NCBI GenBank assembly: GCA_016870055.1
Contig: VGCQ01000005.1
Location: 1-38,146, forward strand
From: Alphaproteobacteria bacterium
Lineage (GTDB): Bacteria; Pseudomonadota; Alphaproteobacteria; Reyranellales; Reyranellaceae
Reading direction: 5' to 3'
DNA: 38,146 nucleotides
The translations under genes and the position numbers were made by a program. Each line of letters opens with the position of its first letter. The first letter of the stretch is position 1. Positions 13,169 through 16,419 of the stretch are shown one piece after another. A model generated the notes under the pieces. That model had not been told where the DNA came from. It was given only the letters and a program-made list of their open reading frames with translations, and did not search any database.

Positions 13169-14461
13169 TCAGACCGCCGCCAACGCCTGGTCGAGATCGG
13201 CCAGGATGTCGTCGATATGCTCGATGCCGATCGACAGGCGCACGTAGCCCGGCGAGACGCCGGTCTTGGCCTGCTCCTCCGGCGTGAGCTGCGAATGAGT
13301 GGTCGAGGCGGGATGGATGGCAAGGCTGCGCGCGTCGCCGATATTGGCGACGTGGTAGAACATCTTGAGGCTGTCGATGAACTTGCGGCCGGCCTCGATG
13401 CCGCCCTTGAGCTCGAAGCCGAGCAGAGCGCCCATGCCGCGCGACAGGTAGGCCTCGGCCCGCCGCTTGGCCTCGCCCGTCATCAGCGACGGGTAGATCA
13501 CCTTGGCGATCTTGGCGTGCTTGGCGAGGTGCTGCGCCACCTTGGCGGCGTTGTCGCAGTGCACCCGCATGCGCAGCGGCAGGGTCTCCAGCCCCTGGAT
13601 GAACATGAAGGCGTTGAACGGGCTCATCGGCGCGCCGACATCGCGCAACAGCGTCACTCGCGCCTTGATGATGTAGGCGATCGGCCCGAGCGGCTTGACG
13701 GCCTGCGTCCACACCGCGCCGTGATAGCTGGGATCGGGCGTGTTCAGCATGGGGAAGCGGTCCTTGTGCTTCTCCCAGTCGAAGTTGCCACCGTCGACCA
13801 GGATGCCGCCGATCGACGTGCCGTGGCCGCCGATGTACTTGGTGGTCGAGTGCATGACGATCGCCGCGCCGTGGTCGATCGGCCGGCAGATCACGGGCGC
13901 CGCCGTGTTGTCCATGATCAACGGCACGCCGAGCTCGCGGCCGATGCGCGCGACCTCGCCGACCGGAAACACCGTCAGCTTGGGATTGGGCAGGGTCTCG
14001 GCGTAGTAGCAGCGCGTCTTGGCGTCGGTGGCACGGCGGAAGTTCTCGGGGTCGGCCGGGTCGACGAAGCGGCATTCGATGCCCATCGTCTTCATGGTGT
14101 TGGCGAACAAGTTCCACGTGCCGCCATAGAGGTCGGTCGAGGCGACGAAGTTGTCGCCGGCATGACAGATGTTCTGGACAGCGAACAACGACGCCGCCTG
14201 CCCCGAACCCAACGCCAGCGCGGCCACACCGCCCTCGAGCGCTGCGACGCGCTGCTCGAGCACGTCGTTGGTCGGATTCATGATGCGGGTATAGATGTTG
14301 CCGAGCTCGGCCAGGCTGAACAGGTTGGCCGCATGCTGAGTGTCGCGGAACTGATAGCTGGTGGTCTGGTAGATCGGCACCGCGACGGCGCCGGTCGCCG
14401 AATCGCTGCGGTAGCCCGAGTGCAATACGACGGTTTCCGGATGCTTGCTGTTGGTCGGCAT
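13169..14461 (-). CDS. metY: O-acetylhomoserine sulfhydrylase / Cys-Met PLP enzyme
   Basis: This 430-residue protein belongs to the gamma-family of Cys/Met metabolism PLP enzymes. The PLP lysine is Lys208 in MHSTTKYIGGHGT. Other markers are IYTRIMNPTNDVLEQR near residue 56, ALEGGVAALALGSGQAA at 74-90, the DLYGGTWNLF loop at 110-119, and IMDNTAAP near 182 with the PLP-contacting Asp. The length and the GTSIGGILVDGG segment fit MetY-type O-acetylhomoserine aminocarboxypropyltransferases, which make homocysteine (or methionine) from O-acetylhomoserine and sulfide or a thiol. Start ATG 14461 is the family's usual beginning and removes a spurious 135-codon extension. It lies 74 bases downstream of the second GNAT gene on the same strand, so it may share the attenuated transcript. 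MetZ or MegL alternatives are less likely. Confidence 0.9.
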   Translation of the reverse strand: MPTNSKHPETVVLHSGYRSDSATGAVAVPIYQTTSYQFRDTQHAANLFSLAELGNIYTRIMNPTNDVLEQRVAALEGGVAALALGSGQAASLFAVQNICHAGDNFVASTDLYGGTWNLFANTMKTMGIECRFVDPADPENFRRATDAKTRCYYAETLPNPKLTVFPVGEVARIGRELGVPLIMDNTAAPVICRPIDHGAAIVMHSTTKYIGGHGTSIGGILVDGGNFDWEKHKDRFPMLNTPDPSYHGAVWTQAVKPLGPIAYIIKARVTLLRDVGAPMSPFNAFMFIQGLETLPLRMRVHCDNAAKVAQHLAKHAKIAKVIYPSLMTGEAKRRAEAYLSRGMGALLGFELKGGIEAGRKFIDSLKMFYHVANIGDARSLAIHPASTTHSQLTPEEQAKTGVSPGYVRLSIGIEHIDDILADLDQALAAV

Positions 14462-14535: not shown

Positions 14536-15024
14536 TCAGGCGGCCATGACCAACCGATCGATCGATGAAACGAAACCGAAACGCTCGTAGAAGCGTCGGG
14601 CATCGCGGTTGAAGGCGTGCACGCCGACCTCGATGTGGCTGGCACCTTGCGCGCGTGACCAGGCGACCATCGCGCGCAGAAGGTGCTCGCCGATGCCCTG
14701 GCTGCGTCGATCGCCGCGCACCGCCAGATTGTCGAGCTCGATCACCTTGCGCGGCACCCTGCCGGCGAAGGGCGACGGCGGACGCGTCAGCAACAGGGCC
14801 AAGCCAACCACCAGCCCGTCGTCTTCTTCCGCCGCCAGGATCGTCGAGCCTGGCCCGGCCAACCACCCCCCGATCTCGTCGCGACTCCGGGCCGGCCCGT
14901 CGAAGCGGCGAAAGACGTCGGGCCGCGCCCGCCGATGAAACTCGTCGAGCTCGTCGAACAGCGCCACCAGCGAATCGTAATCGGCAAGACTCGCCGTGCG
15001 GACACGGATGGATGGCGCGCTCAC
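14536..15024 (-). CDS. GNAT family N-acetyltransferase (second of a tandem pair)
   Basis: This 162-residue single-domain acetyltransferase has the acetyl-CoA motif A as VIELDNLAVRGDRRSQGIGEHLL (basic-Gly-x-Gly pattern RRSQGIG) and the C-terminal motif B NRDARRFYERFGF. It starts at a GTG (15024) that overlaps the TGA of the upstream GNAT gene as a four-base GTGA, indicating translational coupling. Its last 20 residues (RRFYERFGFVSSIDRLVMAA) closely match those of the upstream protein, so the two are paralogues from a local duplication. Substrate unknown; N-acetylation of an amine or amino acid is the family's usual reaction. Confidence 0.9.
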   Translation of the reverse strand: MSAPSIRVRTASLADYDSLVALFDELDEFHRRARPDVFRRFDGPARSRDEIGGWLAGPGSTILAAEEDDGLVVGLALLLTRPPSPFAGRVPRKVIELDNLAVRGDRRSQGIGEHLLRAMVAWSRAQGASHIEVGVHAFNRDARRFYERFGFVSSIDRLVMAA

Positions 15025-15479
15025 GCTGCCAGCACCAACCGATCGGCCGAAGCGGCGAAGCCGAAGGCCTCGTAGAAACGGCGCACGGCGCGGTTGGTCT
15101 CGCCGACCATGACCTCGACCTGGGCAGCGCGGCGCTGACGCGCCCATTCGACGGCCGCCGCCAGCAGCCGCCGGCCGATGCGCTGGCCGCGCTGCTCGGG
15201 ATGGACTACGAGGTTGTCGACCTCGACCACTTTGTGCATGCCGCCGCCCGGCTTGGGCATGATGCGCGTCAGCAATACGGCAACGCCCAGGACCCCGGCC
15301 TCACTCTGTGCCACCAGCAGCGTCGTGCCCGGTGTTTCCAGCCACGCCAAGACCTGTTCGCTGGCATGCGCAGGCTCGTCGAGCAAACCCGCCAGGGCTT
15401 CGCAATCGCGCGGCCCGGCCAAGCGCACGCGGATCGACGGCGGCGGCACCGTCCTCTCCTCGACATCAATGATCGGCAT
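15021..15479 (-). CDS. GNAT family N-acetyltransferase (first of a tandem pair)
   Basis: This 152-residue protein has acetyl-CoA motif A as VVEVDNLVVHPEQRGQRIGRRLL (QRGQRIG) and motif B NRAVRRFYEAFGF. It ends RRFYEAFGFAASADRLVLAA, nearly the same as its downstream neighbour. The ATG at 15479 has a good GGAGGA ribosome site six bases upstream, so the longer frame that continues into the hairpin region is not the protein. It is the first full gene after the leader peptide and attenuator-like hairpins at 15534-15640, so its expression is likely to depend on read-through there. Substrate unknown. The aromatic run in the leader hints at an aromatic amino acid or amine, but this is weak inference. 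Confidence 0.9.
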   Translation of the reverse strand: MPIIDVEERTVPPPSIRVRLAGPRDCEALAGLLDEPAHASEQVLAWLETPGTTLLVAQSEAGVLGVAVLLTRIMPKPGGGMHKVVEVDNLVVHPEQRGQRIGRRLLAAAVEWARQRRAAQVEVMVGETNRAVRRFYEAFGFAASADRLVLAA

Positions 15480-15533
15480 CTCGTCCTCCGTTTGCGGTCC
15501 CGCCGCGGCCCGGAGGCCCTCTCCAGAAACACA

Positions 15534-15558
15534 GAAGCCGCCGGGAAGCGGCGGCTTC
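15534..15558 (-). terminator. Attenuator terminator hairpin (segments 3:4) ahead of the GNAT genes
   Basis: On the minus strand GAAGCCGCCG (15558-15549) pairs with CGGCGGCTTC (15543-15534) in a perfect 10-bp stem with a five-base loop. TGTGTTTCTGG, moderately T-rich, follows. The hairpin lies between the leader peptide and the first GNAT gene. A competing upstream GGCGGC (15584-15579) can pair with the GCCGCC of the left arm and would prevent the terminator forming. Confidence 0.6.
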
Positions 15559-15583
15559 GTCAGGTCACAACCCTTCGCGCCGC

Positions 15584-15634
15584 CTATTTTGGCGACGTAA
15601 AGTACCAACCCTTCTGGAGCAGGTTCGTGTGCAT
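15584..15634 (-). CDS. Putative leader peptide with Trp-Tyr-Phe run (attenuation control)
   Basis: A 16-codon frame encodes MHTNLLQKGWYFTSPK and ends in TAG; an ATG two codons earlier (15640) would add Met-Ala. Trp, Tyr and Phe codons are consecutive at 15607-15599. Just downstream, GTCGCC (15596-15591) can pair with GGCGGC (15584-15579), with the stop codon in and beside the loop. That same GGCGGC can instead pair with the left arm of the terminator hairpin. This is the 1:2, 2:3, 3:4 arrangement of amino-acid attenuators. The ATG at 15634 is exactly where transcription from the promoter at 15641-15670 should begin, so the message would be leaderless, as known for the Sinorhizobium trp leader. 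Translation is not proven. Confidence 0.55.
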   Translation of the reverse strand: MHTNLLQKGWYFTSPK

Positions 15635-15640
15635 GGCCAT

Positions 15641-15670
15641 TTTGTACTCGCTGACGGGGCAATCTGTCAA
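15641..15670 (-). promoter_or_regulatory. Sigma70-type promoter for the leader-GNAT-GNAT-metY unit
   Basis: Reading the minus strand, TTGACA (15670-15665) matches the -35 consensus exactly, and TACAAA (15646-15641) is a four-of-six -10 box after an 18-base spacer. The expected start point, seven bases on, is 15634, the A of the leader-peptide ATG. Divergent vapBC signals lie about 35 bases away. Confidence 0.5.
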
Positions 15671-15739: not shown

Positions 15740-15988
15740 ATGCGGACGACCCTGACGATCGACCCCGATGTTGCTGCCCGGCTGAAGCGCCTACGGCAAC
15801 GCCGCGACATGCGTTTCAAGGATGCCGTCAACGAAGCCTTGCGGGAGGGATTGCGTGCCATGGAAGAAAAGCCGCGAACCCGCCCTCGGTCCTGGACCAA
15901 GCCGCGGCGTCTTGGAGGTTCGCGGATTGGAAGCTTGGATAATATCGCCGAGGTCCTGTCGATAGGCGAACGTGAAGCCTTCAAGTGA
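15740..15988 (+). CDS. vapB: VapB-type antitoxin (ribbon-helix-helix)
   Basis: This 82-residue protein starts MRTTLTIDPDVAARLKRL, the beta-strand and first helix of a ribbon-helix-helix DNA-binding domain, followed by the second helix FKDAVNEALREGL (residues 26-38). The C-terminal half is basic and extended (RPRSWTKPRRLGG), the part that usually threads through the toxin active site. It would bind DNA as a dimer at the palindrome just upstream and neutralise the VapC toxin. The message has almost no 5' leader. Its TGA overlaps the toxin GTG in a four-base GTGA, which couples the two products. Confidence 0.88.
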   Translation: MRTTLTIDPDVAARLKRLRQRRDMRFKDAVNEALREGLRAMEEKPRTRPRSWTKPRRLGGSRIGSLDNIAEVLSIGEREAFK

Positions 15989-16419
15989 TTCTCGTCGACG
16001 CCAACATCCTGATCTACGCTTTCGACGCCGACAGTCCTCAGCATGTCGCTGCTTACGACTGGCTCGACGCGCGTTTCAACGGCACCGCACGCATCGCGCT
16101 TCCCTGGAGCAGCCTCCTGGCGTTCCTGCGCATCGTCACCAACCCGCGCGTGATGCGTCGGCCGGCAAGCATGGTCGAGGCCCGGGCGCAGGTACGATCC
16201 TGGCTCGATTGCCCAGCCGTGTGGATACCGACGCCGGGCGAACGGCATGCCGAAATTCTCGATAGCCTCCTCGCAGCGGTGAACGTCCATGGCAATCTCG
16301 TCATGGACGCGCACTTGGCGGCGCTAGCTTTGGAGCATGGCCTGGAACTGCACTCCACGGACTCCGACTTTGCGCGATTTCCTGGACTACGGTGGCTCAA
16401 TCCCCTAGCAGCCGGTTGA
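15985..16419 (+). CDS. vapC: VapC-type PIN-domain ribonuclease toxin
   Basis: This 144-residue PIN-domain protein should cleave RNA (in studied VapCs often tRNA or rRNA) when released from the antitoxin. Acidic residues expected in the active site are Asp5 (ILVDANILIYAFD), Asp108 (NLVMDAHLAAL) and Asp126/Asp128 (STDSDFARF). The position where many VapCs have the second-motif Glu reads LPWSSLLAFLRI, with Ser instead; a branch of the family shares this pattern and NPRV after it. The frame ends in the family-like GLRWLNPL. It starts at a GTG overlapping vapB and is convergent with the DapA-family gene ten bases away. Confidence 0.88.
   Translation: MILVDANILIYAFDADSPQHVAAYDWLDARFNGTARIALPWSSLLAFLRIVTNPRVMRRPASMVEARAQVRSWLDCPAVWIPTPGERHAEILDSLLAAVNVHGNLVMDAHLAALALEHGLELHSTDSDFARFPGLRWLNPLAAG

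Follow-up and report, generated by a model that had tools for sequence, protein, structure and literature searches.

A putative leaderless attenuator with Trp-Tyr-Phe codons ahead of acetyltransferase genes in the Reyranellaceae

Introduction

Why would acetyltransferase genes be preceded by what looks like an amino acid attenuator? The question arises in a 38,146-nt stretch of DNA (the window; contig VGCQ01000005.1 of assembly GCA_016870055.1) from an alphaproteobacterium of the family Reyranellaceae. From the letters of the window, an initial annotation had proposed that a short minus-strand reading frame with Trp, Tyr and Phe codons works in the manner of the trp and phe attenuators, and that it controls two GNAT acetyltransferase genes and a metY-like gene. 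Following the element through its relatives, we find that it probably is a ribosome-mediated transcription attenuator, and that the conserved gene behind it, its likely target, is a GNAT.

Results

Anatomy of the leader

Read directly, the minus strand from 15670 to 15479 carries a promoter, the leader frame, the pairing segments, a terminator and a hairpin over a Shine-Dalgarno (SD) sequence, in that order. The predicted features and the genes behind them are these:

15670-15665, minus strand: −35 hexamer TTGACA, exact in 55 of 64 leaders
15646-15641, minus strand: −10 hexamer TACAAA, in relatives mostly TATAAA
15634-15584, minus strand: leader ORF MHTNLLQKGWYFTSPK, 16 codons, ATG at 15634 and stop codon TAG at 15586-15584
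15599-15607, minus strand: putative regulatory codons Trp-Tyr-Phe (TGG TAC TTT), codons 10-12, present in 65 of 65 leaders
15597-15591, minus strand: segment 1, CGTCGCC, pairing with segment 2
15584-15578, minus strand: segment 2, GGCGGCG, pairing with segment 1 or 3; its first base is the last base of the leader stop codon
15555-15550, minus strand: segment 3, GCCGCC, forming the antiterminator with segment 2 or the terminator with segment 4
15534-15558, minus strand: terminator hairpin 3:4, a perfect 10-bp stem with loop CTTCC
15524-15533, minus strand: T-rich tract TGTGTTTCTG, directly 3′ of the terminator stem
15485-15516, minus strand: SD-covering hairpin CCTCCG...CGGAGG with inner stem GCGG/CCGC, pairing with the GNAT1 Shine-Dalgarno
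15021-15479, minus strand: GNAT1, 152 aa, the conserved target (Pfam PF00583, 8.6e-16)
14536-15024, minus strand: GNAT2, the second target; its GTG start overlaps the GNAT1 stop (Pfam PF00583, 7.5e-18)
13169-14461, minus strand: metY-like O-acetylhomoserine aminocarboxypropyltransferase (TIGR01326, 2.5e-184)

The promoter is as first described, with 18 nt between its hexamers, and its geometry is fixed in relatives: the spacer is also 18 nt in 51 of 64 leaders, and 6 nt separate the −10 hexamer from the leader ATG in 57 of 64. At the source locus TACAAA is followed by ATGGCCATG and then by the frame MHTNLLQKGWYFTSPK; an additional in-frame ATG lies at 15640 (MAMHTNLL...), and relatives keep the ATG at 15634 instead. 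Because the distance from the −10 hexamer to the ATG leaves no space for a Shine-Dalgarno sequence, the leader ORF is, by promoter geometry, most likely leaderless, as had been claimed of this 16-codon frame, and that geometry is kept across five genera and a second family.

The three pairings, the perfect 10-bp terminator stem (arms GAAGCCGCCG and CGGCGGCTTC at 15558-15549 and 15543-15534) and the T-rich stretch also read as originally described, and the pairings 1:2, 2:3 and 3:4 would be mutually exclusive; the U-tract of the terminator is interrupted. The leader region is better folded than its shuffles (z-score −2.69). In the source sequence alone, two terminator-like sites were found where 0.9 were expected, which is not beyond chance; we take the element to be real because it is conserved in relatives.

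Divergent from the leader, between it and a dapA-like gene, is a pair of ORFs that we named by eye, one VapB-like (MRTTLTIDPDVAARLKRL..., 15740-15988, plus strand) and one PIN/VapC-like (15985-16419, plus strand). In many relatives dapA is nearer to the leader.

Distribution and linkage to GNAT

Covariance model R1, for which 29 leaders were used, matches at E<=1e-8 in 69 of the 76 genomes of the order Reyranellales, or 49 of the 51 good ones, and in all five genera of the Reyranellaceae. The source genome holds a single copy of the leader coding motif. By simple pattern matching, AARGGNTGGTAYTTYAC was found in 29 of 75 family genomes, against one match for a reversed-pattern control.

The element travels with the acetyltransferase. 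Close GNAT relatives occur in 69 of the 75 family genomes (best E <= 2e-24), and the six with distant or no matches (G032, G036, G039, G047, G055 and G065) are the same six that lack the element; Fisher's test gives p 5e-9 for this co-absence, a value that ignores kinship and includes some incomplete genomes. When upstream regions were chosen by the position of GNAT rather than by the motif, the leader was seen wherever the contig extends far enough. In genomes of the family the leader is immediately followed by a close GNAT1 homologue, and the acetyltransferases behind the leader are often two in Reyranella and usually one in the other genera; GNAT2 is the one closest to the single GNAT of those genera. 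The AF2 model of GNAT1 has the GNAT fold (pLDDT 88), and many GNAT structures match it about equally, so that on its substrate profiles and fold say nothing beyond the superfamily. Of the targets first claimed, then, the GNAT genes are borne out by conserved linkage, but the metY-like gene is an accidental neighbour, since it follows the leader at three loci only (the source locus, L126 and L132), and we dropped it as a target.

One genome (G028) carries a second leader copy in tandem (L128, 4800-5040), which has decayed: it reads Trp-His-Phe (Tyr changed to His), its terminator stem is damaged and the GNAT start behind it is truncated. This is what a leader released from selection would look like.

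More widely, a tight-pattern scan of 84,980 species returned 76 stretches, mostly from Reyranellaceae, and the remaining ones have no GNAT behind them in the tblastn table, except for stretches cut by contig ends. A further model (R2, with stricter filters), run over 349 genomes of the phylum, matched the two sampled Reyranella alone; in plasmid collections neither the leader nor the GNAT was matched. No Rfam covariance model hit the leader, either at gathering thresholds or at E<=10, and the literature searched, of which coverage was partial, held no description of such an attenuator ahead of a GNAT gene; the initial annotation likewise knew of none in this position.

The leader peptide and its codons

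The pattern by which we gathered 65 leaders demands Trp-Tyr-Phe and permits TTC for Phe. All 65 have the three residues, which is partly by construction, although the upstream regions anchored on GNAT agree. The triplet occupies codons 10-12 (9-11 in two leaders of 15 codons) across the five genera, the second family has a Trp-Tyr-Phe leader too, and the stop codon comes seven codons after Trp in all such leaders compared; the check on codon conservation that the initial annotation had suggested thus came out in its favour. The rest of the peptide behaves differently: the residues ahead of Trp differ by genus (MTTNLLQKG, MRTTLSQNA, MNGRSIASR, MTGRRHHFG, MSNRCHAC, MANHPHSS), and WYFT is kept while the N-terminus diverges. 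The conserved nascent chain of arrest peptides (erm and TnaC type) is accordingly not seen here. The putative leader ORF does have its control codons where a stalled ribosome would cover segment 1.

The Tyr codon is TAT in 48 leaders and TAC in 17. The Phe codon (15599-15601 at the source locus) is TTT in 65 of 65, and since the collection pattern allowed TTC this count is a real observation; in five coding sequences of the source window TTC occurs 29 times and TTT 3 times, so the leader uses the rare codon. The invariant TTT might reflect a rare wobble codon or some structural need.

Stems, covariation and the predicted switch

Comparison supports the outer two stems by covariation. Stem 1:2 (helix 11-17:25-31 of A2) overlaps the codons after Thr, where the encoded residues change among Ser, Pro and Leu and most pairs are nonetheless kept: 96.9% of cells are paired, double changes run from G-C to A-U and from U-G to G-U, and a single clade, 6 of 28 sequences, has one pair (columns 15:27) disrupted. 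In stem 3:4, one pair covaries (AU in 11, UA in 6 and CG in 2 sequences), and the intrinsic terminator is conserved in relatives. For the two stems taken together, the cells paired and the covariation score exceed those of every shuffle (0/500). Stem 2:3 is complementary, and its near-invariance leaves no covariation to be seen in it; the proposed covariation test was therefore passed by two stems of the three. Stem complementarity is kept across the five genera and the second family.

We then folded the leaders with the footprint of a ribosome masked. With a Tyr or Phe codon in the A site, 2:3 forms in 65 of 65 nascent RNAs; with the ribosome at the stop codon, 2:3 forms in 0 of 65, and 3:4 in 65 of 65 full leaders. 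The stall logic proposed earlier, in which aromatic codons lead to 2:3 and the stop codon to the terminator, is thus reproduced by the folds for Tyr and Phe. In nascent RNA free of ribosomes the minimum free energy (MFE) structure favours 2:3 in 61 of 65, and untranslated leaders may on that account read through. Once the leader is complete, all masking states give 3:4, which would make the switch a kinetic one, as in trp.

The hairpin over the GNAT1 ribosome-binding site, in which CTCC pairs with GGAG, has a covarying inner stem and is retained in the consensus fold; it appears in the MFE structure of 50-55 of 65 leaders and is absent from that of the source sequence itself. We found no sign in the folds that this hairpin switches. 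Two further pairings were considered and set aside. A coupled translation switch, with segment 4 pairing to CCTCCGG and freeing the Shine-Dalgarno, would need a 4:5 pairing that is in the MFE of just 6 of 65 leaders. The pairing of leader CTCCAGAA with post-terminator TTCTGGAG, present in the source MFE, is by eye not kept in relatives.

Leaders beyond the Reyranellaceae

Strong covariance-model matches (4e-15 to 9e-11) occur in one further family, f94. Genus g98 of this family has an orthologous GNAT behind the leader (GNAT2 is 47% identical to the f94 protein), and by eye the two GNAT leaders L183 and L192 can form a similar SD hairpin with other bases, which is in the MFE of L183 and not in that of L192. 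In genus g179 (L182, L184, L189, L190 and L191), the gene behind the Trp-Tyr-Phe leader is instead a stand-alone protein of about 90 residues resembling the S4-type C-terminal domain of tyrosyl-tRNA synthetase (TyrRS-C); with E of 7e-4 to 1e-3, this match does not reach the Pfam cut-offs.

More distant GNAT relatives are less uniform. One from family f129 (L198, minus strand), of a type present in 1 of 23 f129 genomes, has a leader MLIAVHAALYFTGF... in which Leu replaces Trp (Leu-Tyr-Phe-Thr), with a −10-like hexamer 6 nt ahead of the ATG and a GC-rich hairpin; the signal may therefore have Tyr-Phe at its core. The relatives from f124 (L199 and L200) have no recognisable leader.

Two weaker matches stand before genes of aromatic biosynthesis. 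L187 (minus strand, about 1500; 7e-5) has a leader MITVATSYFWYFSYDSLL... that contains Trp-Tyr-Phe and is followed by a terminator before DAHP synthase, and is likely an aromatic attenuator; in L185 (about 1500; 7e-6) prephenate dehydrogenase is preceded by a GC-rich hairpin and a short ORF (...GLYYAASH...) that contains Leu-Tyr-Tyr. These are single cases, and they link the leader type to aromatic metabolism. They share with the GNAT leader the aromatic codons, the start codon beside a −10-like hexamer and the GC-rich terminator, and differ from it in their targets and their much weaker model scores. A DAHP synthase query in six genomes, meant to reach aromatic-gene leaders in Reyranella itself, gave no match.

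Discussion

The anatomy, the geometry, the covariation and the linkage to GNAT all draw their support from comparison of relatives. The start and termination of transcription, and the direction and identity of the signal, we infer as follows. From the promoter spacing, RNA polymerase would start on the A of the leader ATG or right beside it, and a ribosome would translate the leaderless ORF while the RNA emerges. Under a shortage of Trp-, Tyr- or Phe-tRNA, that ribosome would pause at codons 10-12 and cover segment 1, so that the 2:3 antiterminator could form and the GNAT genes be transcribed; a ribosome that had reached the stop codon would allow only the 3:4 terminator. The SD hairpin probably limits translation of the read-through mRNA. 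Given an attenuator-like fold with aromatic codons, the acetyltransferase is probably made when charged aromatic tRNAs run short, and the signal is likely aromatic tRNA charging.

The leader shares with E. coli trpL and the other ribosome-mediated attenuators (trp, his, phe, leu, thr, ilv) a short leader ORF, exclusive segments 1-4 and an intrinsic terminator, and in trpL the control codons are likewise 10-12 (PMC1183508). It differs from that class in having three different aromatic codons rather than one repeated codon, in being most likely leaderless and in its GNAT target. A further parallel is the alphaproteobacterial rnTrpL of Sinorhizobium meliloti, upstream of trpE(G), in which the ATG of a 14-aa peptide ORF is the very start of the RNA (PMC7298713); here the leaderless start is read from promoter geometry only, and a single Trp within Trp-Tyr-Phe ahead of GNAT stands in place of consecutive Trp codons ahead of trpE(G).

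Several points count against the attenuator reading: the near-invariance of 2:3, the preference for 2:3 in ribosome-free folds, the 1:2 pair disrupted in one clade, the interrupted U-tract, the partly built-in identity of Trp-Tyr-Phe, and the target, which is not an aromatic biosynthesis gene. In amino acid biosynthesis attenuators the gene under control produces the amino acid that is sensed, whereas here it is a GNAT (Reyranellaceae, g98 of f94, and f129) or a TyrRS-C/S4-like protein (g179 of f94). We think that the GNAT serves a response to shortage of aromatic amino acids or aromatic tRNAs, not a biosynthetic step.

Another reading is a general sensor of translation stress, with Trp-Tyr-Phe as a slow site, the ribosome slowed by antibiotics or other stress in the style of toiL or erm, and the GNAT detoxifying a translation inhibitor. 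The E. coli topAI-yjhQ operon is controlled by a uORF, toiL, that senses five classes of antibiotics; like the present leader, toiL lies 5′ of a non-biosynthetic operon, and RNA structure there blocks the ribosome-binding site (PMC12121999). Here too a hairpin covers the Shine-Dalgarno, the codons are three different aromatic ones and not a run of one, and aminoglycoside and streptothricin acetyltransferases are among the profile relatives of the GNAT, although every one of these matches falls far short of the cut-off. The parallel is nonetheless limited: in toiL, pairing between the ORF and the ribosome-binding site acts on translation and Rho termination, whereas the present leader has aromatic codons and an intrinsic terminator, and its SD hairpin takes in no part of the leader ORF. 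General slowing, moreover, needs no particular amino acids, yet the aromatic codons are fixed; the freely diverging N-terminus argues against an arrest-peptide code; and similar leaders stand before DAHP synthase and prephenate dehydrogenase. We regard a stress sensor as unlikely.

Still less probable, to the point that we give it little weight, is that selection keeps a product acting in trans, either the short terminated RNA or the 16-residue peptide itself. S. meliloti rnTrpL and its peptide peTrpL do act in trans (PMC7298713), and a leaderless ORF with a terminator would release an RNA of about 100 nt, but the N-terminus of the peptide is not conserved and the element is lost along with GNAT, which points to action in cis. 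An ordinary intergenic terminator beside an accidental ORF, which the terminator scan of the source window taken by itself would permit, is hardly credible in view of the conservation in 69 of 76 genomes, the covariation, the fixed geometry and the decayed tandem copy, which without a full GNAT has lost its Tyr codon and a terminator pair.

Attenuation by charged aromatic tRNA is thus the reading that we prefer, and with it amino acid attenuation would reach beyond genes that make the sensed amino acid. It would also add a second leaderless attenuator to that of rhizobial trp, and the comparative record across the family eases tests of mechanism. More speculatively, and with considerable doubt on our part, the GNATs and the TyrRS-C-like protein of f94 could be effectors of an undescribed response to aromatic-tRNA shortage, switched by a dedicated leaderless attenuator; if so, they might, for example, protect against inhibitors of the Trp-, Tyr- or Phe-tRNA synthetases, or modify an aromatic metabolite or one linked to tRNA. 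For the Reyranellaceae, an orphan GNAT family would gain a predicted input signal, the charging of aromatic tRNA.
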